Part shown: positions 1 through 17,600 of the stretch, piece by piece
Layout of the letters: every line of letters begins with the position of its first letter
Numbering within the stretch: position 1 is the first letter of the stretch
NCBI GenBank assembly: GCA_028280565.1
Contig: JANQLQ010000008.1
Location: forward strand, 1 to 32,051
Direction of reading: 5' to 3'
DNA length: 32,051 nucleotides
DNA from: Fulvivirga sp.
Lineage (GTDB): Bacteria; Bacteroidota; Bacteroidia; Cytophagales; Cyclobacteriaceae
Program-made: the position numbers and the translations under genes
The notes under the pieces: model-generated
Told to the model about the DNA's origin: nothing
The model's input: only the letters and a program-made list of their open reading frames with translations
The model's database searches: none

Positions 1-90
1 CGATTAAACAACACGAGCCGTATGAGCCGAGAGGCTCACGTACGGTTCTGTGAGAGGCTTAGGGGTGAAACTCCCCTTTGCCTACTCGGC
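1..90 (+). mobile_element. Group II intron, 3' end only (domains V and VI)
   Basis: Positions 15-48 form a 34-nt domain V hairpin: GAGCCGTATGAGCC pairs across a GAGA (GNRA) tetraloop with the strand ending GTACGGTTC, which is the typical bacterial sequence. Positions 52-87 form domain VI. GAG 52-54 pairs with CTC 85-87, AGGC 55-58 with GCCT 80-83, and AGGGG 61-65 with CCCCT 73-77. A84 is left unpaired at the place expected for the branch-point adenosine. The 3' splice junction is therefore near 90, although the last bases read GGC rather than the usual GAC. The catalytic core and reverse transcriptase ORF would lie left of the window. The intron is on the plus strand, opposite to the operon ending at 238. 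Confidence 0.85.
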
Positions 91-237: not shown

Positions 238-1293
238 TTAACTCTCCATCAGCGTCCCTTCAAATGCATGTGTTAGTAGGCCCGTTATTCCTTCTTTGGT
301 AATGGGGGCAGGGTTGTCATAAGGTTTGGCCATAACAGCATCCACGGCTTCGTCGATCGAATGGCGTTTAAAACCGATGCTCTCTAGCGTGGTAGGGCCC
401 CCGGCCCGGGCTGCAAGGTCCTTTAAGGCATGGGCAGGATCTTCGCCTAGAACCTGCCGGAAGTCTTCTTGGATTGAAGACGTTAAGTGGGGCCATTGGT
501 AAGACAATACATAGGATTGAAGCACCGTATGCACCCGGGCGTGATCCAGGCCGAATGTGCCGCCCAGCACATGGGCTACTTTATGGTGCAGCGACATGGA
601 CACCTCACACAGGCTTTTCCCTGCTAGGTAGGCGCCAAAAAGGATATTTTCATTCGCTTCGTGGGTCAATGCCTCGTTCCGGGCGATTTCCTGCAATCCT
701 TTTTTCAATTTTTCTATTCCCAATAATGAGTGGTGCCGCGTGATAGGGTTCCCGGTAGGAGAGTAGATAGCCTCCATTAAATGGGCCATAGCGTTCATAG
801 CGCTAGTGACGGCCAGTGGCTTGGGCATGGTAAGGGTAAGACTGGGATCATAGATCACGACCCGCGGTAATACCCAATCCGATCGTCCCGTGGTTTTGCC
901 TCCCTCGGTGGTGATGCCCCAAATGTTCGTTTGCTCCGATCCCGCGAAGGTGGTGGGAACGGCTACAATGGGCAGATGGGTCTCCCGGGCCAAGGCTTTT
1001 GCCAAACCCACGGAAGAACCTCCGCCGATTGACACCAATACACCGGGGTTTTCCTTCTCCAAGGTTTCCTGGGCTTCTTTTACCAGTGTCTCGGGGACAT
1101 GTTGGATCACGTTGGAAATATGAACTACGCTGCCAGCCGGCCTAGCGGCTTTTAACGGCTCTACTTGCGGCTTGAGCCGGTCCTCGGCAATCAAAAGGAC
1201 CTTTTTGAAATTTTTAACTATTTCGTCTAAAATGGAGATTTTACCATCGCCAAAGTAGACCTGGTTGGGGAAAGACCGATACTCAAAATCCAT
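238..1293 (-). CDS. Maleylacetate reductase (iron-type alcohol dehydrogenase family)
   Basis: 351 aa, the normal length for MacA/TfdF/PcpE-type maleylacetate reductases. It reduces maleylacetate to 3-oxoadipate with NAD(P)H in the cytoplasm, the step after hydroxyquinol ring cleavage. The N-terminal half is a dinucleotide-binding domain with GGGSSVG at residues 90-96 and PTTFAGSEQT at 113-122, both typical of the family. The helical C-terminal half carries SAMNAMAHLMEA (164-175) and a histidine-rich HHKVAHVLGG stretch. ATG 1293 lies four bases after the IclR stop codon, so it is the last gene of the leftward operon. The dioxygenase and thiolase of the same pathway in the same operon support maleylacetate reductase over a generic Fe-alcohol dehydrogenase. 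Confidence 0.9.
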   Translation of the reverse strand: MDFEYRSFPNQVYFGDGKISILDEIVKNFKKVLLIAEDRLKPQVEPLKAARPAGSVVHISNVIQHVPETLVKEAQETLEKENPGVLVSIGGGSSVGLAKALARETHLPIVAVPTTFAGSEQTNIWGITTEGGKTTGRSDWVLPRVVIYDPSLTLTMPKPLAVTSAMNAMAHLMEAIYSPTGNPITRHHSLLGIEKLKKGLQEIARNEALTHEANENILFGAYLAGKSLCEVSMSLHHKVAHVLGGTFGLDHARVHTVLQSYVLSYQWPHLTSSIQEDFRQVLGEDPAHALKDLAARAGGPTTLESIGFKRHSIDEAVDAVMAKPYDNPAPITKEGITGLLTHAFEGTLMES

Positions 1294-1297
1294 AATC

Positions 1298-2074
1298 TTA
1301 AAGCTGGTGAAGAGCGTTTTCTATTTTTGATACTGTTTCTTTCAAAGCGGGTAAAAATCTTTCTATCATTTCTTCTTTGCTTACCCTGCTGGCGTGACCG
1401 CTGATGTTAATAGCGGCTAATATTTTCCCGTTCTTATCTCTCAGGGCATGGGCGATAGATCGGATGCCGATCTCTAATTCTTGGTCAGAAAGCGCCCAGC
1501 TCCTCGCCTTTACCAGGTGCACACGTTCGGTGAATTTTAGCTTATCCACTAGTGTGTAAGGCGTAAAGGCTTCAAAGTCAAGCTCCTCTATGTACCTTTC
1601 CATTTCTCCGGGGGCCATCCCGGCAATTAGCACGCGTCCCATAGAGGTGGCATGAACAGGGAGGCGGGTGCCAATACCCAGGGCGATCGTCATGATCCGT
1701 TTGGTCTGTACCCGCGCCACATATACAATGTCCTTACCCTCGAGCACAGACATAGAGCAGGATTCGTTCACTATGTCGGCTAAATCTTCCATGTAAGGCT
1801 GAGCTAGCTCTTGGAAGGAAAGTGAGGATAAGTACGAATACCCCAGGCAAAGTACTTTTGGGGTGAGTTTAAAAAGCTTACCGTCGGCACAAGACACGTA
1901 TCCTAAGTATTCTAAGGTGAGTAATATCCTGCGAGCGTTGGCCCGGGTCAGGTCTACGGCTTTAGCCACCTGGGTCAGGGTGAGCTCTGGATGGTCACGG
2001 TCAAATACGGCAATCACTTTTAAGCCTTTTTCTAAGGATTGAATAAAATCTGATTTTTTTATAGCTGTCGACAT
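1298..2074 (-). CDS. IclR-family transcriptional regulator (PcaR/PobR-like)
   Basis: 258 aa, two domains. Residues about 10-72 are a winged helix-turn-helix (LTLTQVAKAVDLTRANARRI is the HTH). Residues 85-255 are the IclR effector-binding domain, including GTRLPVHATSMGRVLIAG (about 135-152), a signature shared with the PcaR/PcaU/PobR regulators of aromatic-acid pathways. It sits inside the operon, 10 nt after the thiolase stop and 4 nt before the maleylacetate reductase start, so it is co-transcribed with the genes it probably controls. Family knowledge suggests a pathway intermediate such as 3-oxoadipate or hydroxyquinol as effector; that is inference. A likely target is the 99-bp divergent intergenic region at 4172-4270. 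Confidence 0.87.
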   Translation of the reverse strand: MSTAIKKSDFIQSLEKGLKVIAVFDRDHPELTLTQVAKAVDLTRANARRILLTLEYLGYVSCADGKLFKLTPKVLCLGYSYLSSLSFQELAQPYMEDLADIVNESCSMSVLEGKDIVYVARVQTKRIMTIALGIGTRLPVHATSMGRVLIAGMAPGEMERYIEELDFEAFTPYTLVDKLKFTERVHLVKARSWALSDQELEIGIRSIAHALRDKNGKILAAINISGHASRVSKEEMIERFLPALKETVSKIENALHQL

Positions 2075-2084
2075 GCAGCAAAGA

Positions 2085-3299
2085 TCAGGTATTCGCTATA
2101 TTTTCAATAATCGTAGCATATCCCTGGCCTACACCTACACACAGGGTGCAAAGCGCATAGCGCAGACCTTTCTCCTTTAGCTCTAGGGCGGCAGTTTGTA
2201 GGATCCTGGCCCCGGACATGCCTAAGGGATGTCCCAGGGCGATGGCCCCACCGTTGGGATTGATCCTCGGGTCATCATCCGGCAGCCCCCAAGAGCGGAT
2301 ACAAGCCAAACATTGAGCGGCAAAAGCTTCATTGAGCTCAATGATATCCATATCATCGAAGGTCAACCCCGCTTTTTTCAAGGCTCTATGAGAAGCCTCT
2401 ACCGGGCCTATGCCCATAATGCGGGGTTCTACCCCTACCACCTGTGAAGCTACCACCCTGGCCATGGGAGTTAGTTGATATTTCTTTACGGCGTTTTCCG
2501 AAGCGATGAGTACCGCCGCGGCACCATCGTTCAGGCTCGAGGCATTCCCTGCCGTGACAGAACCGTTGGAGCGAAAAGCCGGCTTTAACGCTGCCAGCGC
2601 CTCCATGGTAGTTTGGGGGCGGATGGGTTCGTCTTCGTCGAATACCTCGGCAGGACCTTTCCGCCGGGGGATCTCTACGGGGGTGATCTCCTTGGCCAGC
2701 CGCCCGCGTTCCCGGGCGTTTGCTGCTTTTCGTTGGCTATGGTAAGCAAAAAGGTCCTGGTCTTCCCGGCTGATGGTTTGCTGGTCCACTATATTTTCAG
2801 CAGTTTCTCCCATGGCGTGTGTGCCGTATTTTTCTTTCATCTTCGGGTTAACAAAGCGCCACCCAAAGCTGCTGTCGTATAATTTTGCATCGTTTCCGAA
2901 AGGCTTGGCGGATTTGGACATAACCCACGGCCCCCGGGTCATATGTTCTACTCCCCCGGAGATAAATAGGTCCCCGTCCCCTGCTTTGATGGCCCGGTTC
3001 GCGTGGATAATCGCAGACATCCCGGATGAGCACAGGCGGTTGATGGTTTCCCCGGGTACATTTACCGGCAGTCCTGCCAGCAATGCAGCCATCCGGGCTA
3101 CGTTCCTGTTATCTTCTCCTGCTTGGTTATGACACCCCAAGATCACATCGTCAATTTGATGCGGATCTATCGCAGGGTTCCTTTGGAGCAGTCTTTCCAT
3201 GACCAAAGCGGCCAGGTCATCGGTACGGACTTCCGAGAGGCCTCCCCTGAATTTGGCAATAGGGGTGCGTATAGCGTCTATGATATAAGCCTCTTTCAT
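2085..3299 (-). CDS. pcaF: 3-oxoadipyl-CoA thiolase (acetyl-CoA acyltransferase)
   Basis: 404 aa thiolase of normal length. The acyl-accepting cysteine is C90 in NRLCSSGMSA. The base residues are H357 (GHPLGMSGAR) and C387 (TLCVGVGQG). NEAFA, shared by all thiolases, is also present. It cleaves 3-oxoadipyl-CoA with CoA to succinyl-CoA and acetyl-CoA, the last step of the 3-oxoadipate pathway. The closest family by motif and context is PcaF/PaaJ; sequence alone cannot fully exclude a beta-oxidation thiolase, but the operon makes PcaF the best reading. ATG 3297-3299 overlaps the dioxygenase TGA in an ATGA junction, suggesting translational coupling. Confidence 0.87.
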   Translation of the reverse strand: MKEAYIIDAIRTPIAKFRGGLSEVRTDDLAALVMERLLQRNPAIDPHQIDDVILGCHNQAGEDNRNVARMAALLAGLPVNVPGETINRLCSSGMSAIIHANRAIKAGDGDLFISGGVEHMTRGPWVMSKSAKPFGNDAKLYDSSFGWRFVNPKMKEKYGTHAMGETAENIVDQQTISREDQDLFAYHSQRKAANARERGRLAKEITPVEIPRRKGPAEVFDEDEPIRPQTTMEALAALKPAFRSNGSVTAGNASSLNDGAAAVLIASENAVKKYQLTPMARVVASQVVGVEPRIMGIGPVEASHRALKKAGLTFDDMDIIELNEAFAAQCLACIRSWGLPDDDPRINPNGGAIALGHPLGMSGARILQTAALELKEKGLRYALCTLCVGVGQGYATIIENIANT

Positions 3300-4171
3300 G
3301 ATAAGGTTTTCTTTTGGGCCAGTACGAAATCATGCTGCACATCATAAAATGGGCCAGTGACCTGCCATTTCTTGGCGTCGCCGGGATTTTCGTTCTGCTT
3401 GAAGTCAAGGATCAACGACTCCTTGACACCGAATACGGCATCTGAGTCCAGGTATTCATCGCCCTCCACGAAAAGATGTGTGATCAAGGGCTCGTAGCCG
3501 TCAGCTTCGATCCAAAAATGGATATGTGCCGGCCGCATCGGGTGCCGGCCGGTAGCATTCAGTAGCTCGCCTACCGGGCCGTCTGTAGGAACAGGGTATG
3601 GGGCAGGTTTGATCGTCCTAAACCAAAAAGATCCATCCTCTTGCGTGGTAAAGATCCCCCTTAGGTTCATTTCGGGTTGGTTTTTATCCTGGATATCGTA
3701 AGCGCCAATGTCGTCAGATTGCCATACATCGATGACCGCCCCGGCTACAGGGCGCTGGTTTTCATCCAATATCTTCCCGTGTACTACGGTGGGCTCCCCC
3801 CGGCTGGCTTCTTCACCCGTGGCAATGTTAGCACCCATCTCATAATGACGGGCCTTGGCGTGGAACGGGCCGGTAACCGTGGTCTCTGTGGTTTGCCCGC
3901 CATGACGATGGTTAATCGCATCCACCAGCATAGAAACTCCCAAAACATCGGAAAGCAGGATGAATTCTTGCCGTGTATCGCTGCTAGTGTGCCCTGTCCT
4001 GGTCAGGAAATCAATGGCATATGCCCACTCTTTTTCCGTAGGTTCCAAGTCCCTAATGAAAGCATGCAGGTGCTTAATAAGCTTTGAGACAATCTCATTT
4101 GTCCGGTCGTCTTCGCTATTCAATCGGGCAAGTACGACCTCCGTTAGGTTTTCTTCTGTCAGATTTCTCAT
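3296..4171 (-). CDS. Hydroxyquinol 1,2-dioxygenase (intradiol ring-cleaving)
   Basis: 291 aa from ATG 4169-4171. An upstream in-frame TTG at 4195 would add eight residues, but the ATG begins the conserved N-terminus MRNLTEENLTE. The N-terminal catechol-dioxygenase dimerisation domain (about 8-95) includes LGVSMLVDAINHR, typical of hydroxyquinol rather than catechol dioxygenases. The catalytic beta-sandwich supplies the non-heme Fe(III) ligands Y158 (GAYDIQ), Y192 (APYPVP), H216 and H218 (RPAHIHFW), with R213 alongside. It opens 1,2,4-trihydroxybenzene between C1 and C2 to give maleylacetate. It is first in the leftward operon, followed by thiolase, regulator and maleylacetate reductase, which fits this substrate assignment. 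A catechol or chlorocatechol dioxygenase is the main alternative. Confidence 0.88.
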   Translation of the reverse strand: MRNLTEENLTEVVLARLNSEDDRTNEIVSKLIKHLHAFIRDLEPTEKEWAYAIDFLTRTGHTSSDTRQEFILLSDVLGVSMLVDAINHRHGGQTTETTVTGPFHAKARHYEMGANIATGEEASRGEPTVVHGKILDENQRPVAGAVIDVWQSDDIGAYDIQDKNQPEMNLRGIFTTQEDGSFWFRTIKPAPYPVPTDGPVGELLNATGRHPMRPAHIHFWIEADGYEPLITHLFVEGDEYLDSDAVFGVKESLILDFKQNENPGDAKKWQVTGPFYDVQHDFVLAQKKTLS

Positions 4172-4270
4172 GTTGATTCTTTTTAAGACCAACAATTTTT
4201 AATTTATTTTGTTTGTATATAAAACAAAAGTACGAAATAAAAACTTATTTTCACCCCAAACCCTTTTACA
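4172..4270. promoter_or_regulatory. Divergent promoter/operator region of the hydroxyquinol locus
   Basis: This 99-bp AT-rich gap separates the two divergent halves of the pathway and must hold both promoters. It contains a perfect inverted repeat: TTTTGTTT at 4207-4214 and AAACAAAA at 4222-4229, around the 7-nt spacer GTATATA. IclR proteins bind palindromes in such divergent regions, so it is a reasonable operator candidate. No clean Bacteroidota -7/-33 pair was found on either strand, so the promoters themselves are not placed. Confidence 0.5.
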
Positions 4271-6022
4271 ATGGATCCTAAATATGAAACCGATGTATTG
4301 ATTGTCGGCAGTGGACCGGCAGGCTCGTCCGCTTCGGCTTTGCTAAGTTCGTATGGCATTCGAAATGTTGTGGCTACCAAATACAACTGGTTAGCCAATA
4401 CCCCACGCGCCCATATTACCAACCAGCGCACGATGGAAGTTTTTCGAGATCTTGGGATCGAAGACGAAGTCAAAGAAAAAGCGGTCCCCCAGGATTGGAT
4501 GGGCAATAATCTGTTTTGTACCAGCATAGCCGGTGAGGAATTGGGACGGCTGCATTCCTGGGGTACACATCCGAAGCGTTGGGCGGATTATACCTTGGCC
4601 AGCCCCACTACTATGTGTGATATTCCCCAAGACCTGGTGGAGCCCATTTTGGTAGGGGCCGGTGCTCGAAGAGGCTCGAAGTACCAATTTGACAAAGAAT
4701 ACCTCGGGCTGGAACAAGATGATAAAGGAGTTACTGCCTTGATCAAAGACCGGCTGTCCGGGGAGGAGTTCAAAGTGAGAGCCCAATACCTTATTGGAGC
4801 AGACGGGGGTAACAGTAAGGTGGCGCAGGACATTGATCTACCCTACCAAGGACAAATGGGGGTAGGGGGCAGCATGAACATTGTATGCAAAATGGACCTT
4901 TCCAAATACGTAGCGCACAGACCGAGTGTGCTGTATTGGGTAGTGCAGCCCGGCTCAGATGTGGGGGGCATAGGCATGGGACTGGTACGTATGGTGAGGC
5001 CATGGAACAAATGGTTGATCGTTTGGGGGTATGATATCAACGATGGCGCCCCGGATGTAAGCGATGCGATGGCCAAGGACATCGTGCATAATCTCGTGGG
5101 GGATGCCACTATCCCCATAGAAATTGAATCTACCTCTACTTGGACGGTCAACCACTGTTATGCCACTACGATACAGTCCGGCCGTGTTTTTTGTATGGGA
5201 GACGCTATTCACCGCCACCCGCCGTCGAACGGCCTGGGGTCCAATACTTCTATCCAGGATGCCTTTAACCTGGCCTGGAAGCTGGCCCTGGTCCTTAAAG
5301 GCCAGGCCGCTCCCTCGCTGCTGGACTCGTACCAGGCCGAAAGAGCGCCTATCGCGGAGCAGGTGGTGAACAGGGCCAATAAAAGCATCGCAGAATTCGC
5401 CCCCATCTTTGATGCGTTGGGCTTGACGGATACCTCCGATCCCAAACAAATGAAGGCTAATATGGCCAAACGAAAAGAAGTAACCCCGGCGGCAGGGCAA
5501 CAGCGTGAAGCGTTAAGGAAGTCGATTCTTTTTAAATCTTACGAATTTAACTGTCACGGGGTGGAGATGAACCAGCGGTATGTATCCGGGGCGATTATTC
5601 CTGACGGCACGCCCGAACCGGCTTACACGCGTGATGCAGAGCTATATTACCAAGCTACCACCTGGCCGGGCGCTCGCCTTCCGCACGTTTGGCTCGGGGA
5701 TAACGGGCATAAAATCTCAACCCTAGACCTGGCCGGAAGAGGGAAATTCACCTTATTCACCGGCATAGGCGGGGAGTTGTGGATAGAGGTGGCCCGAGCG
5801 TTGGGCGAAGCGTTGGGAATGGATATTCGCACAGTTCAAATAGGCCCGGGCAGGGATTATACGGACTTGTACGGCGAGTGGGCGGAGGCCCGGGAGGTGC
5901 AGGATACCGGGTGCCTCTTGATACGCCCGGATTTCCATGTCGCCTACCGGTCCAAATCGGTCACGTCTTCTGCTAAAGACGATCTTGAGCAAGCGCTTTT
6001 AAAAATTTTGGGAAAATTGTAA
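4271..6022 (+). CDS. TfdB-like FAD-dependent phenol hydroxylase (aromatic monooxygenase)
   Basis: 583 aa class A flavoprotein hydroxylase. FAD-binding motifs are GSGPAG at 13-18, the DG motif around ADGG 177-180, and the GD motif at 310-311 followed by [20 protein letters not shown] (314-333), a stretch I recognise from 2,4-dichlorophenol 6-monooxygenase (TfdB) and related phenol hydroxylases. Residues after about 400 form the thioredoxin-like C-terminal domain of the phenol hydroxylase group. It uses NAD(P)H and O2 to hydroxylate a phenol ortho to the hydroxyl. Since the neighbours handle hydroxyquinol, the likely substrate is a dihydroxybenzene such as resorcinol, or a phenol convertible to one; this is inference. 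It starts the rightward operon, 12 bp before the CoA-transferase. Confidence 0.85.
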
Positions 6023-6033
6023 ATGGACCGATC

Positions 6034-7380
6034 ATGAAAAATGTTCCTGTAATCACTTTGAAAGAAGCTGTCCGTAAAATTAAGGATGGGGACGTATTGC
6101 TTTGCGGTGGGTTTGGAATGACCGGTAACCCGGTACATCTATTGAATACCTTGGCGGAGACGGGTACGAAAGACCTCACATACATTGGAAATAATGTGGG
6201 AGAGCCCGGGCTGGGAGGAGGCCGGCTGCTATACAATGGTCAGCTTAAAAAAATGATCGGCTCCTACTTTACCAGCAACCCAGACGCGGTGAAAGCGGCC
6301 CAGCAAGGACAGGTTTCCTATGAACTGTTACCGCAAGGGACACTGGGAGAAGCGATCCGTGCCGGGGGCATGGGGATCGGGGGGTTTTACACTCCTACGG
6401 CAGCCGGTACCGTATTGTCCGAAGGCGCCGAGGTAAAGATTATCAATGGGGTCGACCAGGTCTTTGTTAAAGGCATACGGGGTAATGTAGCTTTGATCAG
6501 GGCTTGGAAAGCAGATACTGCGGGTAACCTTGTTTATCGCATGACCGAGCAGAATTTCAATACGGCCATGGCCACCGCCGCGGATCTGGTGATTGCCGAA
6601 GTGGAAGAGATCGTGCCCGTAGGCGAGCTGGACCCTGACCATGTCCATACCCAGGGATGTTTCGTGGATTACCTGGTACAGGCTACCCTCTGTGAAAGTG
6701 ATCTAGGCTCTTCTGCCTCCGTAAAGGGAAGCTTGAAAAAGGTAGATGAAGCCAGGCAGAATATTGCTAAGAGGGCTTTAAAAGAACTCCATACCGGGGA
6801 TATCGTGAACCTCGGCATTGGTATTCCTACGTTGGTAGCGGACCTCATCGGGCCCCGGGATGGCGTGATCCTCCACACGGAAAACGGCATGCTGGGGGTG
6901 GGACCAGAACCGCCGGATGGCTCCGGGGCCTTGGTCAACCCCGTGAATGCCGGCAAGATCCCCGTGACCCCCTTGCCCGGGGCGAGTTACTTTGATTCCG
7001 CCACATCGTTTGGTATGATACGCGGCGGACATGTGGATGTGGCCATTATGGGAGGCTTGCAGGTAGATGCACAGGGAAATTTGGCCAACTGGGCCGTCCC
7101 GGGAAAGCCTTTATTAGGAGTGGGAGGGGCGATGGACCTGGCCTCTGGAGCGAAAAAGCTGGTCATTACTATGCTTCATACCAATCGTGATGGCTCTTCC
7201 AAGATCGTAGAGTCCTGTTCGCTGCCGCTTACGGCGGTAGGTGTGGTAGACATGGTCATTACGGATTTAGGGGTTTTTGAGTTCAAAGAGGGGCAGCTTA
7301 CGTTAATCGAACTGATGCCTGGGGTGAGTGTGGAGGAGGTTAAGGAGTGTACGGATGCTCAATATGTTGTGGGGGTTTGA
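6034..7380 (+). CDS. 3-oxoacid (3-oxoadipate) CoA-transferase, fused A and B subunits
   Basis: 448 aa, with the two subunits of a SCOT/PcaIJ-type enzyme in one chain. The A part (about 5-225) has the glycine-rich [10 protein letters not shown] near residue 24. The B part (about 240-445) has [10 protein letters not shown] at 261-270 and the catalytic glutamate in TENGMLGVG (E283), which forms the glutamyl-CoA thioester. It would move CoA from succinyl-CoA to 3-oxoadipate, giving the thiolase substrate. PcaI and PcaJ are usually separate, so the fusion is notable. By sequence alone acetoacetate could be the substrate; pathway context favours 3-oxoadipate. The last ~56 nt of the gene are copied 163 bp downstream by a tandem duplication. 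Confidence 0.85.
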
Positions 7381-7650
7381 GAGTATGACATTAAGGATTT
7401 GGCATTGATGGCGGTTTTGTGGCTTGTTGGCCGGGTTACAAACCCTGGTGATCATTAAAAAGGCACAAGTTACAAACTTGCGCCAGTTGAGTGTGGAGGA
7501 AGTTAAGGAGTGTACGGATGCTCAATATGTTGTGGGGGTTTGAGAGTATGACATTAAGGATTTGGCATTGATGGTGGTTTTGTTGCTTGTTGGCCGGGTT
7601 ATAAACCCTGGTGATCATTAAAAAGGCACAAGTTACAAACTTGCGCCAGT
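7325..7650 (+). repeat. 163-bp tandem duplication with REP-like hairpins
   Basis: Unit 1 (7325-7487) and unit 2 (7488-7650) are adjacent direct repeats with a constant 163-nt offset and about four substitutions by eye. Each unit holds the last codons of the CoA-transferase, including its stop, then two short hairpins: GGGTTACAAACCC (changed to a T in copy 2) and CAAGTTACAAACTTG. The second copy of the gene end has no start and is non-functional. Confidence 0.9.
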
Positions 7651-7855: not shown

Positions 7856-8839
7856 TCATACCCAAATAGCTCTTTTTGTGCTGAACTTATTTCGGTACTC
7901 TACGGGAGTAAGCCCGGTTATTTTCCTGAATACACTTCGGAAGGCTTTCGTGTCTGAGTATCCTACGTCGTACATCACCTCGTTGACTGTTTTGCCCTTT
8001 GTTTCTAATCCTTTTTTAGCCGCTTCGATCTTTACCCGTTGGATGTACTCTGCCGCGGTATTGTGTGTGGCCTTTTTAAATCTTCTTTCCAAGCTTCTCC
8101 TGGCAATGGCAAATCGGTCGCAAATGCCATCGACGGTTAATTTCTGCTGGTAGTTATTCTCTATAAACAGCTGGATGTCTTTTATGCTTTCGTCTTTATG
8201 CTCACTTTGTCCTTGGAACATAATGAAGGGAGATTGACTGTTCCGGTCAATTTCAATAGCGAAATACTTGGCCGCTAAGACGGCCATTTCGCGGTTGGTG
8301 TACTTTTCTATAATATAAAGTAATAGGTTCCACAGTGAATTAGCCCCTCCACTGGAGTAAATGCCATTCTCATCGGTGATCACCTTATCATCCTCGAGCT
8401 CCACCTGGGGGAACATCTCCCGGAACTGGTCTGCAAATATCCAATGCGTGGAGCATCTCTTCCCATTTAATAAGCCCGTAGAAGCGAGGAAAAATGCGCC
8501 TGCACAAAGGCTGGCTACCTCTGCTCCTTGATGGTGCTGCTTGATGATCCAAGGAATAAAATTCTTGTTGGCCTCCAATGCCTCCTTCATGTTTCCAATA
8601 AGGGCAGGAAGAAAGACCAGGTCCGTCTTTTCTACGTGATCTATCAAATCATTTACATGTACTGTATAGGTTCCCTCATGAAGCTTTACTTCTTTGGTCA
8701 ATCCTAAAAGCTGTACATCAAAAAGGGCAGCCTTACCACTACTGGCGAGGAATTGATTGACGGCCTGGAATAAGTAGCGAGGGTCTTCAATACTTGAAAG
8801 AACAGCATAATTGGGGACGAGGATGGAGATATGTTTCAT
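7856..8839 (-). CDS. GlxA-type AraC transcriptional regulator (DJ-1/PfpI-like N-terminus), copy 1
   Basis: 327 aa. Residues 1-185 form a class I glutamine amidotransferase/DJ-1-like domain, with the elbow cysteine C112 in ASLCAGAFFLAS and STHW at 130-133. Residues about 232-318 form the double HTH of AraC proteins (RRSLERRFKKAT and VMYDVGYSDTKAFRSVFRK). These domains normally bind a ligand and do not act as enzymes. It is divergent from the small-enzyme operon that starts at 9080 and so is the natural candidate to regulate it. Its C-terminal half is nearly identical to the paralogue at 11228-12249. Confidence 0.9.
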   Translation of the reverse strand: MKHISILVPNYAVLSSIEDPRYLFQAVNQFLASSGKAALFDVQLLGLTKEVKLHEGTYTVHVNDLIDHVEKTDLVFLPALIGNMKEALEANKNFIPWIIKQHHQGAEVASLCAGAFFLASTGLLNGKRCSTHWIFADQFREMFPQVELEDDKVITDENGIYSSGGANSLWNLLLYIIEKYTNREMAVLAAKYFAIEIDRNSQSPFIMFQGQSEHKDESIKDIQLFIENNYQQKLTVDGICDRFAIARRSLERRFKKATHNTAAEYIQRVKIEAAKKGLETKGKTVNEVMYDVGYSDTKAFRSVFRKITGLTPVEYRNKFSTKRAIWV

Positions 8840-8948
8840 AAACTAAAACTACAAATTAAAGATGGCGGGATCAACCCCCTAATTCGACGCCTTTGGCTCT
8901 AACATCCGCTTAACAGATACTTTAGCTTTGTGTACGCTTATAATCGAG

Positions 8949-9050
8949 TGCCGTTAAGTTTAGGCTAACGCTCATCCCTAAAGCCCCTAAAGGGGCACCA
9001 ACAGAACGGTGGATTGCACCTTTAGGGGTACGATGGGTATGCTGAACTGA
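8949..9050 (+). repeat. Dispersed intergenic repeat, copy A
   Basis: The sequence from TGCCGTTAAG (8949-8958) through a perfect CCCCT-AA-AGGGG palindrome near 8985-8996 and on to GGGGTACGATGGG is shared with 12545-12616 on the opposite strand, with substitutions and a shorter middle in that copy. It fills most of the 240-bp gap between the divergent AraC gene and the VOC gene, so it may overlap their promoters. No protein is encoded. Confidence 0.65.
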
Positions 9051-9079
9051 ATGGCGTTAACTTATGAATCAAACCTATC

Positions 9080-9499
9080 ATGACACAGGGCTTATGGATC
9101 AATCTACCGGTCAAGGAACTGGGGAAATCAAAGGAATTTTTCAAGGCAATGGGCTTCAAATTCAATGAACAGTTTGGCGGTGACAGTAAAGAATCTGCCT
9201 GCCTCGAAGTGGGTGAGAAGCCCAATGTAATTATGCTTTTTGCGGATTCTACGTTCGAAAATTTGGCAGGAAATCAAATCGCTGATACTCAAATCGGCAC
9301 CGAGGTATTGCTTTCCATTGACGCAAGATCAAGGCAGGAGGTAGATGAAATGGCAAGCAAAGCAGAGGCTGCCGGGGGGACGACCTACGCTGCCCCTAGT
9401 GAAATTGACGGATGGATGTACGGTTGTGGCTTTACAGACCTTGACGGTCACCGGTGGAATGTGCTCTACATGGATATGGACAAAATCCCTAATCGTTAA
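9080..9499 (+). CDS. VOC-family protein (glyoxalase/bleomycin-resistance fold)
   Basis: 139 aa, the usual size of a single-chain vicinal-oxygen-chelate protein with two beta-alpha-beta-beta-beta modules. The first starts LWINLPVKELGKSKEFFKAM and the second ends in FTDLDGHRWNVLYMD, where glyoxalase-fold proteins place a metal ligand. The substrate cannot be read from sequence; relatives are annotated as lactoylglutathione-lyase-like or extradiol-dioxygenase-like. It is first in a four-gene operon (gaps of 11, 32 and 25 nt) of small cytosolic proteins. Confidence 0.85.
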   Translation: MTQGLWINLPVKELGKSKEFFKAMGFKFNEQFGGDSKESACLEVGEKPNVIMLFADSTFENLAGNQIADTQIGTEVLLSIDARSRQEVDEMASKAEAAGGTTYAAPSEIDGWMYGCGFTDLDGHRWNVLYMDMDKIPNR

Positions 9500-9510
9500 A
9501 AAGATAAAAA

Positions 9511-10068
9511 ATGAGAAAACTCAAACTACAGCTACAGACCTCTATCGATGGGTTCATTGGCGGGCCTAACGGGGAAATGGATTGGATGGTGTGGGACTGG
9601 GATGACCAGCTAAAGAAGTATGTAAGTGAACTGTTAGATTCTATTGATTGCATCCTTCTTGGCCGAAAACTGGCGGAAGGCTTTATCCCGCATTGGACAG
9701 GAGTAGCCTCGGACCCGAAGAACCCCGAAGTTGAAGCCGGTAAAATATTTACCCAGCTTCCCAAAGTGGTATTCACCCGGACCCTTGACCACTCTCCATG
9801 GGATAATACAACCCTAGCCAAAGGAGATCTTACGGAAGAAGTGAAAGCCATAAAGGAGCAGGAGGGAAGGGACTTATATGCCTGTGGTGGCGCAGAATTT
9901 GTCTCCAATTTAATTGGGGAGAACCTCATAGACGAATATTATTTGTTCGTCAATCCTTCCGCGATAGGGAACGGGATGTCCGTATTCCGGCAAAGAACGG
10001 GTTTACAATTTGCAGCTGCCCGATCTTTTCCGTGTGGCATCACTGTTCTCAAATACGAGTCTAAATAA
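9511..10068 (+). CDS. RibD C-terminal / dihydrofolate-reductase-like family protein
   Basis: 185 aa covering one DHFR-like NAD(P)H-binding domain. Features are the N-terminal strand KLQLQTSIDGFIGGPNGEMD (4-23), a central ILLGRKLAEGF segment, and the C-terminal YACGGAEFVSNLIGENLIDE where RibD_C proteins bind the nucleotide. Such stand-alone proteins resemble the YyaP/YwjB group and their substrates are mostly unknown. It has no deaminase domain, so it is not a full RibD. ATG follows an AT-rich leader 11 nt after the VOC stop. Confidence 0.85.
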   Translation: MRKLKLQLQTSIDGFIGGPNGEMDWMVWDWDDQLKKYVSELLDSIDCILLGRKLAEGFIPHWTGVASDPKNPEVEAGKIFTQLPKVVFTRTLDHSPWDNTTLAKGDLTEEVKAIKEQEGRDLYACGGAEFVSNLIGENLIDEYYLFVNPSAIGNGMSVFRQRTGLQFAAARSFPCGITVLKYESK

Positions 10069-10100
10069 TTTCAACCAGAGAATAAGAAAATAAAAAGATC

Positions 10101-10478
10101 ATGACAAAGATTACCATTCAACCCAGTTGTGAAAACGCACCAAGAAAGTCATTTCTCAAAGATTTTAACGTGGCTTTTGCTACGGGAAATGCAGGTTTCA
10201 TTATCGATCAAGTCCACGAAGATATCACCTGGGTGATCCATGGAGATAAGATGATCCGAGGAAAGGACCAGTTTGCCCAGGAAGTGAATCTAATGAAAGA
10301 GTACATAGCCGATGAACTGGTCATCCACAACATTATTACGCACGGCAGGGAAGCGGCTTTGAATGGTGAAATGAAGATGGGAGGTGAAACGTATGTCTTT
10401 TGCGACGTGTACCGATTCCTCGACACCCGGAACAATGTAATTAAGGAAATGAATTCCTATGTAATAAAAATCAAATGA
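10101..10478 (+). CDS. SnoaL/NTF2-like small protein
   Basis: 125 aa with the outline of the cone-shaped NTF2-like fold: an N-terminal helix (FLKDFNVAFATGNAGFI), the sequence VHEDITWVIHGDKMIRGKDQ where such proteins line the pocket, then beta strands ending YVFCDVYRFLD. Members act as isomerases, hydrolases or ligand-binding proteins; no catalytic assignment is possible here. It is the third gene of the 9080-10944 operon. Confidence 0.75.
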   Translation: MTKITIQPSCENAPRKSFLKDFNVAFATGNAGFIIDQVHEDITWVIHGDKMIRGKDQFAQEVNLMKEYIADELVIHNIITHGREAALNGEMKMGGETYVFCDVYRFLDTRNNVIKEMNSYVIKIK

Positions 10479-10503
10479 TCAATAATTTTAAATTACCAAC
10501 ACT

Positions 10504-10944
10504 ATGGCATCAGTAAGCACTTATTTGAATTTCTCTCGCAATACCGAGGAAGCATTCACCTTTTACAAGTCCGTCTTTGGCGGGGAGTTTTTCGGGGATG
10601 GGATCATGCGGTTCAGAGATATGCCCCCACAGGAGGGTATGCCTCCTTTGTCGGAGGAAGACCAAGACCTGGTGGTGCATGTGGAACTCAAAATTTTGGG
10701 TGGGCACAGTCTTATGGGTTCTGACTCACCTTGGGATATGGGCTTCAATCTCAGCCAAGGTAACAATGTACACATTAACCTGCAAGTGGATACCCGGGCT
10801 GAAACCGACCGACTGTTCCATGCCCTTTCACAGGATGGTGAGGTTACCATGCCCATGGAGGACCAATTTTGGGGCGATTATTTTGGCAGTTGCGTCGATA
10901 AGTTTGGTGTGCAGTGGATGTTTAACTGTCCTGAAAAGGCTTAA
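10504..10944 (+). CDS. PhnB-like VOC-family protein
   Basis: 146 aa. The N-terminus (VSTYLNFSRNTEEAFTFYKS, 3-22) and the C-terminal FWGDYFGSCVDKFGVQWMFN match the PhnB/3-demethylubiquinone methyltransferase-like subgroup of VOC proteins. The function of this subgroup is generally unknown, and the methyltransferase name in databases is a legacy label. It closes the four-gene operon. The two VOC proteins in this operon differ and are not recent duplicates. Confidence 0.82.
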   Translation: MASVSTYLNFSRNTEEAFTFYKSVFGGEFFGDGIMRFRDMPPQEGMPPLSEEDQDLVVHVELKILGGHSLMGSDSPWDMGFNLSQGNNVHINLQVDTRAETDRLFHALSQDGEVTMPMEDQFWGDYFGSCVDKFGVQWMFNCPEKA

Positions 10945-11227
10945 TTTAACGTGATTTTGGGCTAAATAAACCATCCTAAAATAACTCATTTCAATGCAAA
11001 GTATTGAAACCAGCTTTTAACTGCAGAGGGTGCAGTGAATACCAAGCGAACCCAGGGTAATTTCCATCGCTCTCGGCGGCCCAACCAGTTTTCTCCGCGG
11101 TTAGACAGTTGACTACGCAGCAATTAAACCCCAAACTCTCGTTAGTTTAAAGAGAGTTTGGGCATAAGCCAAGGCGATGGCCCCGCTTTTGGTATTGTTG
11201 TTGAATTGTCTAAGTAAAAGCCCAAGA
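10945..11227. other. Intergenic region with an 11-bp perfect hairpin
   Basis: This lies between the convergent PhnB-like gene and the second AraC gene. CCCAAACTCTC (11130-11140) and GAGAGTTTGGG (11152-11162) form a perfect 11-bp stem with an 11-nt loop. There is no clear T-run on either side, so a bidirectional terminator is possible but not shown. The left arm shares the AACTC(A/T)CG core found near 147 and 31325. Confidence 0.6.
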
Positions 11228-12249
11228 TCAGGCATAATAGGCCCTTTCTTTGCTGGTCATCTCTTCACTGGGATAAGCTATCTCCCGGTTATACTTATTA
11301 CGGTAGGCTACCGGGGTGATACCCGTATGCTTTTTGAAGATATTTCTAAACGCTTTTGTGTCGCTATAGCCTACGTCATACATGACCTCGTTCACAGTTT
11401 TTCTCCCCGTTTCCAACCCTTTTTTAGCGGCTTCAATTTTTACCCGTTGAATGTACTCCACAACGGTATTAGAGGTGGCATACTTGAACCTTCGCTCAAA
11501 TGAACGTCTGCCCACGCCCAGTTGCTCGCACAATTCCTGCACGGCAATTCTCTCTTTGAAATGCTCTTCGATGTATTGCTGGGCCTTTAGTATTTGCTCA
11601 TCCTCATGTTCTTTTTGGCCTACAAATATTCGGAATTGGGATTGGTTCGACCGGTCATAGTCGATCATGAAAGCTTTAGAAGCCGCGACGGCCAATTCCT
11701 TTCCCGCGTATTTTTCGATAAGGTAAATGATCAAGTTCGTGAAGGAAAAGGCGCCGCCACTGGTGTACACCCCATTTGCCTCTACTACGATTCGTTCATC
11801 CACCAGTTCGGCCGAGGGGAATTGATGCTGAAAACGGTCAGCACCTTCCCAATGGGTAGAGCACGCTCTTCCGTTTAACAAACCGATAGAGGCCAGGAAG
11901 AACGAACCATAACACATACTGGCAATATCGGCTCCTTTATTGTATTGTTTTAATACCCAATCCGCTGCGTCCTCGTTGATCTTTTTGTTATGTATGGCAT
12001 CCCCAAAAATGGCGGGAATGAACACTACACCTGTTTTCTCTATATCCTTCATCATCGCATCGGGGTGCACGGTAAAAAGCCCGGTTGATTGAGTGGTCGC
12101 TTTTTCTGTTCCTACCAACTGAACATGGAAGACAGGTTCCCTGCCTACCTGCTGGCAATACAAATTCACCCAGTTCAATATTTGATGAGTAGCCTCTTGT
12201 TGATGACACTAAAATGTCCTTGGGGGATCAAAATGGATACGTGCTTCAT
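11228..12249 (-). pseudogene. GlxA-type AraC regulator, copy 2, with a 1-nt frameshift near its start
   Basis: The long frame (11228-12178) has the DJ-1-like domain with cysteine in SMCYGSFFLAS, STHW, and the AraC double HTH. It lacks an ATG and would have to start at TTG. Upstream, ATG 12247-12249 opens a second frame reading MKHVSILIPQGHFSVINK before a TGA at 12175-12177. This is the N-terminus expected for the family and matches copy 1 (MKHISILVPN). One missing base near AACAAGAGG, about 12195-12200, would join the frames as VINKEATHQILNWVNLY. So either the gene has a one-base deletion or the sequence has an error there. A shortened protein from the TTG would lack the first beta strand of the amidotransferase-like domain. 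Confidence 0.8.
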
Positions 12250-13539: not shown

Positions 13540-14526
13540 ATGCAAAGAATGACCAAACACGAATTTCAAGAGCTGCTGGACCGTTACTTTAATGGCATTG
13601 TTTCCGAACAGGAGAAGCAACTCGTTGAAAACTTTTACAAAAAGCTCCAAAAAACGGGGGAAGGGTGGAATTCTTTTAGCGACGAAGAAAAGAATGATCT
13701 GAGAATAGAAATTTATAATTCCATTCAAAAGAAAAAACTCGCCCCCGCTAAAAGTGATAAGCCCAAAACGGGTAAATGGATGTGGAGAGTAGCAGCTTCT
13801 GTTATTGTTGCTTTGGGGATTGGGGTAGCTTATCATTTGCAAGTACGGTCGCCAGGGTCCGAACTAAAATACATCACCAAATCTACCAGTAAGGGGCAGA
13901 AAGCCACCATCCTATTAAATGATGGTTCCGTTGTTCGTTTGAACTCGTTGAGTTCAATCAAGTACCCGGGAACATTTCCTGGAACGCTAAGGGAAGTCGA
14001 ACTCCGTGGCGAGGCTTTCTTCGACGTAAAAAAAGATACCGATAGACCTTTTTCGGTCACGTCACATGATATTCAAACTACGGTGCTTGGAACCTCTTTC
14101 AACGTTCATGCCTATGACTCCTCCTCCGTTTCGGTGGCACTGGTTACAGGCAAAGTAAAAGTAAGGTCCATCGCTGAAGCATCGGCTTTCAATACATCAG
14201 AGGTGTACCTCAGCCCGGGAGAAAGTGCATTATACGACGGTAAGTCGGGAGACATTAAAATCGGTCCATTTGATAAAAAGGAACTCATAGCTTGGAAAGA
14301 TGGGATCATTTACCTGTCTGATGCTAGCTATGAACGGGTGTTTGATCAACTCGCCAGCTGGTATGGAGTGGAGTTTCAATTTGCCAATGAGCCAGCTGAA
14401 AAGTGGGAAGTATCCGGTGAGTTTAAAGATATGAGCCTGGAGCTCGTGTTGAATACCATTGGTTATTCAAAAGGATTTGAGTTCCAGGTCCGGGACGATA
14501 TAGTAACTGTGAAATTCGAAAACTAA
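13540..14526 (+). CDS. FecR-family anti-sigma factor, inner membrane
   Basis: 328 aa. A cytoplasmic N-terminal segment (1-78) that would bind the sigma factor is followed by one transmembrane helix at about 80-98 (WMWRVAASVIVALGIGVAY). The periplasmic FecR domain spans about 113-215 (GQKATILLNDGSVVRLN, GEAFFDVKKD). The C-terminal domain at about 255-326 (YLSDASYERVFDQLASWYGV) is the DUF4974 region that contacts the STN domain of the receptor. Length and layout are standard for Bacteroidota FecR proteins, and position between ECF sigma and SusC fits. Confidence 0.93.
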   Translation: MQRMTKHEFQELLDRYFNGIVSEQEKQLVENFYKKLQKTGEGWNSFSDEEKNDLRIEIYNSIQKKKLAPAKSDKPKTGKWMWRVAASVIVALGIGVAYHLQVRSPGSELKYITKSTSKGQKATILLNDGSVVRLNSLSSIKYPGTFPGTLREVELRGEAFFDVKKDTDRPFSVTSHDIQTTVLGTSFNVHAYDSSSVSVALVTGKVKVRSIAEASAFNTSEVYLSPGESALYDGKSGDIKIGPFDKKELIAWKDGIIYLSDASYERVFDQLASWYGVEFQFANEPAEKWEVSGEFKDMSLELVLNTIGYSKGFEFQVRDDIVTVKFEN

Positions 14527-14693
14527 AAAACTTGTAAGGCCTATGATGAGATAACTGACTAAATAAAGAAACCCCGAAGTACCAAGTCGTTTGGCAGCGC
14601 TGAATACCTCGGGATCACAATTTGAACTAAATCAAATCATTCCAAAGATAGGAATCGAGACTTTTTATGCTTTGGAATCAACTAAAAATCTAA

Positions 14694-17600
14694 ATGAAAC
14701 CAAGATCTTTTAATCATTTAATATACTTAATGAAACTTAGCGTTGGTCAACTTTTACTGATTGCACTGGCGTGTGACCTGGCTTTCGCAACTGGCCTTAA
14801 AGGCCAGGCAGAGAATGTATTTGATGTGAAATTCGAGATGTCTGTTAAAGGCAGATCAATTCATGATGTGTTCGAAGAAATTGAATCAAAAACAGATTTC
14901 AGGTTCTTTTTCGAGAAAAAAGTTCTAAAAGGCAGACCTAAAGTCACTTTTGAAGAAAAGACGTTAGGAGATGCTTTGAATTCGATCAGTGAGCAAGCCA
15001 GGTTAAATTTTCGCCAGGTAAATGAAGTCATCGCGGTAACAGAACCTAAAAGTGACAAGGACAAGAAACCTGTTGAAGTCCTTCTTTATGATAAAAACCT
15101 GCAGGGAAGAGTAATGGATGCTGAAACTGGTGAGCCTCTCATAGGCGCTACGGTGCAGGTAAAAGGAACGTCTATGGGTACGATCACCGATGCAAAGGGC
15201 AACTTCCGGCTCTCCGTACCCGATGATGCGGAGACTTTGGTGATCTCCTATATCGGGTTTGAGACGCAGGAAGTAAGCATAGCTAACCAAACAACTTTCA
15301 ATGTTTCTCTCAAACAGAACACGTCATTTTTAGGCGAGGTGGTCGTTACCGGGCAGGGAGCGGGAATTAATGAAAACCGAATTTCAAATAAGGTAGAGGT
15401 AATAAAAGCCGAAGAGCTGGAAAATATTCCCTCGCAGCGTATCGACCAGCTACTTTCAGCCAAACTTCCCAACGCCCAAATAAGTTTGACCGGGGGCCAG
15501 GCCGGCGCTACTTCTTTGATCCGTGCACGCGGTGTAAACTCGGCTTTTTTGAATTCTACCCCCATATTCTACATAGACGGGGTAAGGATGGATAACCTGA
15601 ACACCCGGGGTACTTTGGGAGGAGGGAATGCCCAAAGAGCTGCCATTAGTTCAATTGCCGATATCCCAATGGATAATATTGAACGCATAGAGTTTATCAA
15701 TGGAGGTGCGGCTACTACATTGTATGGGGCTGACGCAGCCAATGGAGTCATTCAAATTTTTACAAAAAAGGGAGGTGCTTCTTCCAAGACCGACATCACC
15801 TTTGAGGTACAAACCGGCATTGAAACTCCAACGACCGATTTCCTTCATTTTGAAAGGTCAGAAGATCTACTGTTTCAAAATGGATTTTACCAAAAATATC
15901 ACCTAGGGATCAATGGCGGTAACGAGGACTTTGGATACAGTTTTTCCGGTAATTTCTTTGACAATGAAGGGTCCCAGTTTGCTGATAACAATGCCAATAG
16001 AAAAATAGACTTTAGTACCGGGTTTCGCGCAAAGCTGGGAGAAAAAGTGGATTACAACAGCTCTTTCATTTTTGTCAATAACCAATTCAATAGAAACCGA
16101 AATGGCAACCAGGGGGGGTATACGGGACTTTGGTTTGCGGAAAGTGGTTCCTCTACTTTAGTCGGTTTCAATAATAGGTTAGATGAACTCACCGATGCCG
16201 AGTTTGACGAGATAAAGGCTTATGCTCACAGGGCAGAGGAGTTGCAGGACAATGAGATCAATGTCAACCGTTTTATTACCTCCCAGTCCTTCAAGTACAC
16301 GCCGATAAACAACTTGGAATTGAAATTTACCGGTGGTATTGATTATCGTTTGCAAACCGAGCAAACCATTATCACCAATGAGTACCTTTCACACACTACG
16401 CAAAACGAAGTAAACGATGAGGGAAGCATTACCAATGTAGACCGGGATTACTTTGGGATCACGTTGGAGTTTACAGGCCAGTACAAATGGTTTGCCGGGG
16501 ACTTTTCTTTTATCTCTACTGCGGGGGGACAACTGTTTCGCAATGAAGATCGCCAGGTCGAATTTGTAGGAACGAACATTAGGGATGGAGCCCAGGTTAT
16601 AAGCGATGCCGCAATTAGGAACAGTGATGAGTTTTTAATTGAAGTTCTGAACTATGGTATTTATGTTCAGCAAAACATCGGGTACCAGGACAAAGTTTTC
16701 CTGGACTTAGGAGTTCGTGGAGACAGAAACCCCGCTTTTGGAGATAATATCGGTACCCAATACTACCCTAAGGTGGGTCTATCTTACTTAGCCAGTGATG
16801 AACCTTTTTTACAAGGTGTAGACTGGTTAAATTCATTACGGATCCGGGGTAACTATGGACTGGCGGGGAACTTACCGCCGGCATTTGTAAACGAAAGAAC
16901 GATCACTTTCACCGGCTTCCAGGGTGAACAGGCGGCATTTTTTGCTAATCCCGGTAACGATGATCTCAAACCGGAGCAGACCACAACCATTGAAGCAGGA
17001 ATAGACGTGGCTATGTTCAATAATCGCGTCAGCTTTTCGGTTTCAAGGTATAATGCTACAACACAAGATGCACTTTTTTTCGTACCACCGACACCGTCTA
17101 CCGGTTTTGATCAAAGTCAATTGTCTAATGTAGGTGAGATTGAAAACAAAGGGTGGGAGATAAGCGTAAATGTGGAGCCCATTAGGACAGATCAAAGTTC
17201 GTTACGATTTAACTTTTCGGTAAACACCTTGGATAACGAGGTGGTGAGCTCCGGCGGCACAGCGCCTTTCAATATCAATGGCTTTAGTGCCCGTACCATC
17301 CAGACCGTGGTGGAAGAAGGGTTCCCAGTAGGGTATTTGAGAGGAAACCTAGGCGTTTTTGGTGAAAATGGTGTTTTTGAAAGCACTACCCCAAATTCTT
17401 TTCTCGGGACAACCCTCCCCGACCTGTATGGTAACATGGGACTGGCTTTCGATTATGGAAACTTCTCTTTATTTGCCAATGCCAGTTACCAGCAGGGCGC
17501 TTACGCCCATAGTTTTGACCAGCAGTTCAGGTTTTTATACCAAGCTTCAGAGGATATAATACCAGCGGCTGAAATTGAAGCTAACGGGAGATCAAATTGG

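Follow-up and report, generated by a model that had tools for sequence, protein, structure and literature searches.

Bacteroidota are best known for polysaccharide breakdown, and the resorcinol locus of Corynebacterium glutamicum is a known example of the hydroxyquinol route in other bacteria. The whole stretch of DNA analysed here (the window) was contig C30 of a Fulvivirga sp. genome, 32,051 bases, in which positions 238-7380 held six intact-frame genes in two divergent operons: genes for a maleylacetate reductase, an IclR-family regulator, the thiolase PcaF and a hydroxyquinol 1,2-dioxygenase on the reverse strand, and genes for a monooxygenase and a CoA transferase on the forward strand. 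Judged from their sequences, these six genes very probably form a cassette for the inducible breakdown of phenols of the resorcinol and/or hydroquinone type. As an earlier first-pass annotation of this DNA had proposed, each step leading from a dihydroxybenzene to acetyl-CoA and succinyl-CoA had a candidate enzyme. What is new is a conserved but rare Bacteroidota form of a route well known in other bacteria.

The hydroxyquinol route is presented as a known pathway branch in a review (PMC3727088). Excerpts of other studies named Pseudomonas as a likely contributor (PMC12116535), suggested full hydroxyquinol degradation for Alicycliphilus, and proposed that up-regulated extradiol dioxygenases of Bacteroidetes/Chitinophagaceae metagenome-assembled genomes (MAGs) might cleave hydroquinone (both PMC9420511). 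No Bacteroidota case was named in the excerpts of PMC6366072 and PMC3086911, and the genus paper on Marivirga (PMC11225308) did not mention catechol, dioxygenase, hydroxyquinol, phenol or xenobiotic; “aromatic” appeared in it once, in a gene-count table. By title and start of abstract, none of the open-access papers listed in the literature search described a characterised Bacteroidota hydroxyquinol pathway, which agrees with the first-pass annotation, whose author knew of none; prior work elsewhere is possible.

Gene content and enzyme families

The six genes of the cluster were the following:

238-1293, reverse strand: maleylacetate reductase (MAR), iron-containing alcohol dehydrogenase (Fe-ADH) superfamily, 351 aa (PF25137/PF00465, PDB relatives)
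1298-2074, reverse strand: IclR-family regulator, PcaR/PcaU/PobR subfamily, 258 aa (TIGR02431)
2085-3299, reverse strand: 3-oxoadipyl-CoA thiolase PcaF, 404 aa (TIGR02430)
3296-4171, reverse strand: hydroxyquinol 1,2-dioxygenase (HQDO), open reading frame readable from TTG 4195 (PDB relatives, tree)
4271-6022, forward strand: single-component FAD monooxygenase of the TfdB/HbpA type (FMO), 583 aa (PF01494 + PF21274)
6034-7380, forward strand: fused 3-oxoadipate (3-oxoacid) CoA transferase, subunits A+B, 448 aa (TIGR02429 + TIGR02428)

The divergent two-operon layout and the tight junctions described earlier were found as claimed: the HQDO stop and the PcaF start shared an ATGA overlap (3296-3299), and the gaps were 10 nt between PcaF and IclR, 4 nt between IclR and MAR, and 11 nt between FMO and the CoA transferase. 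ATG 4171 was a likelier start for HQDO than TTG 4195. The Bacteroidota host was also borne out, the genome lying in the same family as Marivirga genomes bearing the same cluster. HQDO, FMO and MAR were named from solved relatives and trees; the trees were quick searches carrying only support from the approximate likelihood ratio test (SH-aLRT), and rows were dropped where the match was shorter than 160 residues (HQDO), 400 residues (FMO) or 200 residues (MAR, PcaF and CoA transferase). Database proteins were picked by hand from 120 listed in each case (7 for HQDO, 12 for FMO and 9 for the CoA transferase).

HQDO combined the N-terminal domain PF04444 with the catalytic intradiol domain PF00775, and its Tyr and His motifs were located and aligned with those of 1tmx; two Tyr and two His are the iron ligands of such an enzyme. 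Against solved structures it scored 273 bits with 8r2x, which bears the name 6-chlorohydroxyquinol-1,2-dioxygenase, 261 with 3n9t (PnpC) and 243 with 1tmx (hydroxyquinol 1,2-dioxygenase), vs. 133 bits at most for the catechol and chlorocatechol types. A 43-row tree placed it with Bacteroidota and Chloroflexota proteins in a clade of 18 rows (support 95), within the group holding 8r2x and 1tmx, and its nearest relatives beyond Bacteroidota were Chloroflexota MAGs. Two catechol-type Bacteroidota rows, two chlorocatechol rows from plasmid pJP4 and the second dioxygenase of the same genome lay outside; the split of the hydroxyquinol group from this outgroup had an SH-aLRT support of 93, with a warning from the tree program about long outgroup branches. 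The earlier assignment to the hydroxyquinol type was thus upheld, and a catechol-type reading was rejected on the structure scores and the tree.

FMO carried the domains PF01494 (FAD_binding_3) and PF21274 (ring-hydroxylase C-terminal) and was similar to TfdB and HbpA over its full length. The label “phenol hydroxylase” given to it earlier did not hold: HbpA scored 675 bits and TfdB (6u0p) 529, vs. 69-74 for the classical phenol hydroxylases 1foh and 1pn0, and the enzyme is better described as TfdB/HbpA type. FMO shared 49% identity with HbpA, 57% with a paralogue on contig C223 of the same genome and 58-59% with two pJP4 enzymes. Enzymes encoded on alphaproteobacterial plasmids were 60-62% identical to it, and those of a second group of alphaproteobacteria, which includes Labrys, Inquilinus and Acidisoma, 66-70%. 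The 17 Bacteroidota rows that formed one clade with it (support 98) in a tree of 35 rows reached 69-78%. This clade adjoined the second alphaproteobacterial group and left the C223 paralogue, the pJP4 enzymes and HbpA (used as outgroup) outside. A metagenome protein of 893 aa, P0239, was a natural fusion of the two enzymes, matching FMO at 68% over 576 aa and HQDO at 52% over 286 aa, and therefore supports a common pathway for both; as a lone sequence from one 3,022-base contig it serves as supporting evidence only. One of its halves was among the 12 database proteins picked for FMO and the other stood in the HQDO tree.

For MAR, the four best PDB relatives (3jzd, 3iv7, 3w5s and 3hl0) scored 201-237 bits and the next Fe-ADH 79; 3w5s and 3hl0 are named maleylacetate reductase, the top two, 3jzd and 3iv7, having been deposited under general dehydrogenase names. 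The 12 MARs of such clusters, that of the window included, formed one clade (support 100) on a long branch, with 34-41% identity between the window MAR and the proteobacterial MARs compared, and no other PF25137 match turned up in the genome at E <= 0.001. The label of maleylacetate reductase stands accordingly for a member of the Fe-ADH superfamily nearest to known MARs. Curated cut-offs were exceeded for the other three proteins, so that their earlier names were retained: PcaF reached 618.8 bits with TIGR02430 (equivalog cut-off 597), the CoA transferase 291 with TIGR02428 (cut-off 243.55) and 214.7 with TIGR02429 (cut-off 128.5), and the regulator 314.9 with TIGR02431, pcaR_pcaU (cut-off 284.75). 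PcaF fell in a 5-row clade (support 98) together with PcaFs from the clusters of Marivirga sericea and genus g55. Scores and trees did not place the reductase or the thiolase in unrelated families, an outcome that the first-pass annotation had named as damaging to its proposal. Both PcaF and the CoA transferase resemble Bacteroidota beta-ketoadipate enzymes; the organism-named relatives among the 120 listed for the CoA transferase are Bacteroidota.

Gene content, intact frames, family placement, synteny and site conservation were computed, and the following pathway is what they suggest. FMO would hydroxylate its substrate ortho to a phenolic hydroxyl to give hydroxyquinol, and HQDO, as predicted from its family, would open the ring between vicinal hydroxyls to give maleylacetate. 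In favour of the first step, hydroquinone hydroxylases require no more than a free ortho position, according to the review PMC3727088. MAR would reduce maleylacetate to 3-oxoadipate, the fused CoA transferase would convert 3-oxoadipate to 3-oxoadipyl-CoA, and PcaF would split this into acetyl-CoA and succinyl-CoA. The PcaR-like regulator may bind a site that covers the HQDO operon's start, repressing that operon together with its own gene, and may release it when a pathway intermediate is present.

Conservation among relatives and a predicted operator

A survey of the family found a dioxygenase match at E <= 1e-40 in 14 of 390 genomes (the window genome included) and 8 of 84 genera, and none of the 14 congeneric genomes searched had a match at this threshold; such patchy occurrence fits transfer or loss. 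A draw of 395 genomes across the phylum gave, at E <= 1e-40, no second hydroxyquinol-type case, only the window genome and one catechol-type match at 33%. When 58 relatives were searched, 16 genomes had a match at E <= 0.001, those of the window genome and G016 alone reaching at least 69% (the G016 dioxygenase was interrupted by a run of N) and the remaining ones being weak or other intradiol enzymes. The dioxygenases of genomes G478 and G043 (32-33%, beside a CoA transferase and PcaF) fell with the outgroup. A scan of named organisms gave five loci; the three Bacteroidota ones, from Marivirga arenosa, M. sericea and one MAG, are among the 13 other genomes of the family survey.

The dioxygenase was at least 55% identical in 12 of these 13 other family loci, and a divergent FMO gene adjoined it in all 12, Marivirga and Chryseotalea among them. 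A divergent FMO/HQDO pair in 12/12 loci is therefore more than chance, and the conserved synteny for which the first-pass annotation had called was found in several genera. MAR was present in 11/11 loci whose contig reached that far (it was cut by a contig end in two), IclR in nine of those 11, and a CoA transferase gene near FMO in 10/12, about 1.3 kb away in one. The thirteenth locus (G072) had a dioxygenase of 39% on a 5.4-kb contig, with none of the other cluster genes. The cluster is not unique but rare, and has a conserved form in one Cytophagales family.

Two further features were predicted in the gap between the divergent operons:

4211-4225, no strand assigned: predicted operator GTTTGTATATAAAAC (GTTY-N7-RAAC), from pattern conservation in divergent gaps
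4225-4232, reverse strand: predicted -7 promoter element TACTTTTG of the HQDO operon (TANNTTTG/TAHHTTTG consensus)

The 15-bp pattern GTTY-N7-RAAC occurred in 10/11 divergent gaps of loci with IclR or cut before it (9/10 loci where the IclR gene was seen, plus G217, whose contig ends before the IclR position) and in neither of the two loci without IclR (0/2). In dinucleotide shuffles of the same 11 gaps the pattern turned up in 0.23 loci on average and in 2 at most over 2000 trials, and four of five lineage representatives had it, vs. a maximum of 2 in 5000 shuffles. The pattern was set after viewing the sequences, with PcaR-type sites as a guide, and the loci are related by descent; these counts therefore overstate independence. 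It was also present twice elsewhere in the window. Published sites of PcaU and of C. glutamicum PcaR, of the type GTNCG-N5-6-CGNAC (PMC8222616), agree with the predicted operator in outer arms and spacing, but it lacks their inner CG.

According to an excerpt of PMC6847099, TANNTTTG/TAHHTTTG is the Bacteroidota -7 consensus. An TANNTTTG element directed at HQDO was found in 9/11 gaps, and in seven its last G was the first base of the site, as in the window; with that G at -5, as in the same excerpt, the site would span -5 to +10, a repressor's position. No -7 element directed at FMO was found in the divergent gap of the window. The putative operator beside a Bacteroidota -7 element is a new prediction.

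Alternative functions and a second locus

Several observations weigh against the proposed pathway. None of HQDO, FMO and MAR reached an NCBIfam cut-off, and sequence does not settle which substrate FMO uses: its best solved relatives are 2-hydroxybiphenyl and 2,4-dichlorophenol monooxygenases. PcaF was present in 4/12 family loci and missing from 8/12 sister stretches, and two loci (G075 and G078) had FMO, HQDO and MAR only, without IclR, CoA transferase and PcaF; their FMOs were close to that of Belliella pelovolcani. Among the plasmid stretches compared, Roseicitreum had FMO and dioxygenase with no annotated MAR, and Skermanella had dioxygenase and MAR with no such FMO. The CoA-transferase tree left the window row unplaced, and Deinococcus plasmids carrying fused CoA transferases at 69-72% count against a strict phylum label for this enzyme. 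For the regulatory part, the IclR locus G163 lacked the operator pattern, which adds to the post hoc definition of the site and the absence of its inner CG. There was also no transporter among the six genes.

It is unlikely that the cassette mainly clears quinone or phenol stress, removing toxic hydroquinones or hydroxyquinol derived from other reactions with little gain for growth. Pairs of VOC and phospholipase-type proteins resemble the quinone-response mhq genes, and the cluster of Marivirga sericea was flanked by two VOC-superfamily proteins and a phospholipase/carboxylesterase-type hydrolase (L031:5672-6649, 14120-15717), while Martelella sp. AD-3 (L065) had a VOC gene and a phospholipase gene next to FMO and MAR. 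However, a block with its own PcaF can take carbon to acetyl-CoA and succinyl-CoA, and the nearby VOC proteins of the window were small only (139 and 146 aa), among the proteins scanned.

A role in the degradation of chlorinated phenols, with FMO as a true chlorophenol hydroxylase and HQDO acting on 6-chlorohydroxyquinol, is quite unlikely. The identity of FMO to the two pJP4 TfdB-type enzymes, the name of the best solved HQDO relative, the public names of Chryseotalea and Microscillaceae relatives and a second, chlorocatechol-like locus in the genome all point this way. However, the pJP4 enzymes branched apart from the clade that joins the window FMO to its HQDO-paired relatives, automatic names are no tests, and the six genes included neither of the two marks of the modified ortho (chlorocatechol) pathway, a cycloisomerase and a dienelactone hydrolase. 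An HbpA-like route, in which FMO turns 2-substituted phenols into substituted catechols and the adjacency of HQDO is incidental, is highly improbable: HbpA was the top-scoring solved relative of FMO, but it lay outside the FMO clade, as the outgroup, with the identity of 49% given above, FMO and HQDO were adjacent in every one of the 12 family loci and fused in P0239, and no extradiol enzyme was recognised among the window proteins scanned. Degradation of resorcinol- or hydroquinone-type phenols through hydroxyquinol remains the preferred reading.

The second locus of the same genome (contig C223, L060:232-6532) encoded a sigma-54-type regulator, a muconate/chloromuconate cycloisomerase (TIGR02534, over the cut-off), a dioxygenase of the chlorocatechol type whose best model, TIGR02465, did not reach its cut-off, an MBL-fold lactonase-like protein and the TfdB-type paralogue of the window FMO. 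It had no MAR of its own, that of the window being the only one found in the genome; no muconolactone isomerase match was found in the genome, which had eight dienelactone-hydrolase-family matches over the cut-off, one of them strong (C211). At E <= 1e-30 its dioxygenase was found in no other genome among 380 of the family, the five other hits falling, at 30%, on HQDO genes from genus g76 (Marivirga). Together, the cassette in the window and the C223 locus could represent a two-locus system for phenols and chlorophenols that is new to Bacteroidota, both ending in maleylacetate and sharing the MAR, CoA transferase and PcaF of the window, with the MBL-fold lactonase-like hydrolase standing where a dienelactone hydrolase is expected; this reading is doubtful.

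Genomic setting and comparison with known systems

Two further features bordered the cluster:

13-90, forward strand: group II intron 3' end at the contig edge (RF00029, 59.6 bits)
7325-7650, forward strand: tandem duplication of 163 bp (159/163 identical), starting inside the 3' end of the CoA-transferase gene

The duplication covers the last CoA-transferase codons and the sequence behind them. The window is a whole contig that opens in the intron 3' end and is cut beside MAR. At least 24 RF00029 matches at E <= 0.001 were found in the genome, 23 of them over the cut-off (150 of 512 candidates were scored), and 10 fell in the first 153 bases of their contigs. The first-pass annotation had called the locus self-contained; the six pathway and regulator genes were all there, but the wording is too strong, because they include no transporter and the contig is cut at MAR.

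The GC content of the six genes was 0.47-0.54 vs. 0.447 for window positions 7801-32051. As a sign of recent transfer, base composition was rejected as non-decisive, because one nearby gene stood at 0.505 and the FMO-HQDO part was likewise slightly GC-richer than the whole stretch in seven of eight measured sister loci (the exception being L057). Elsewhere in the window, two AraC-type regulators, one with a DJ-1/PfpI domain by Pfam (7856-8839) and one resembling FtrA (11228-12178), flanked small VOC, RibD-C and SnoaL-like genes (7856-12178), and a PIG-L deacetylase domain was fused to a glucosamine-6-phosphate isomerase domain (23642-25567).

The cluster extends a classic branch of aromatic degradation to Bacteroidota and offers a testable pair of regulator and site with a Bacteroidota promoter. 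Named strains such as Marivirga sericea DSM 4125 carry it, which allows a direct check of their growth on resorcinol or hydroquinone. By sequence similarity the cassette looks like a mosaic, because its two lower enzymes are Bacteroidota-like, the nearest relatives beyond Bacteroidota are alphaproteobacterial for FMO and Chloroflexota MAGs for HQDO, and its MAR is distant from the proteobacterial MARs compared.

The comparison with proteobacteria rests on plasmid records, two loci of the named scan and some named proteins. The plasmids of four alphaproteobacteria pair such an FMO with an intradiol dioxygenase and a MAR: the three genes were together in Martelella, ABC transporter genes lay between dioxygenase/MAR and FMO in three rhizobial relatives, and in the Ensifer record, which is unannotated, a translated search found FMO, dioxygenase and MAR. 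The clusters of Rhizobium johnstonii pRL12, Agrobacterium vitis pAt and Martelella sp. AD-3 resembled that of the window in having FMO (60-62%) and MAR (34-37%) nearby and an intradiol dioxygenase also near (best copy 48-55% to HQDO); they differed in their LysR regulators and ABC transporter genes, and the annotation of the stretches shown included neither a CoA transferase nor a thiolase. The tfd modules of pJP4 shared the TfdB-type FMO (at the identity given above) and MAR (35-36%), but had a chlorocatechol dioxygenase, a cycloisomerase and a dienelactone hydrolase instead of HQDO, and LysR regulators. The beta-ketoadipate (pca) operon on a plasmid of Hymenobacter monticola shared the fused CoA transferase (73%) and PcaF (69%), but starts from protocatechuate, and no HQDO, MAR or TfdB-type FMO was annotated in the stretch. 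From the resorcinol locus of C. glutamicum, whose regulator RolR is of the TetR type (PMC3086911), the cluster of the window differs in its Bacteroidota host, in including a CoA transferase and a thiolase, and in its IclR-type regulator.

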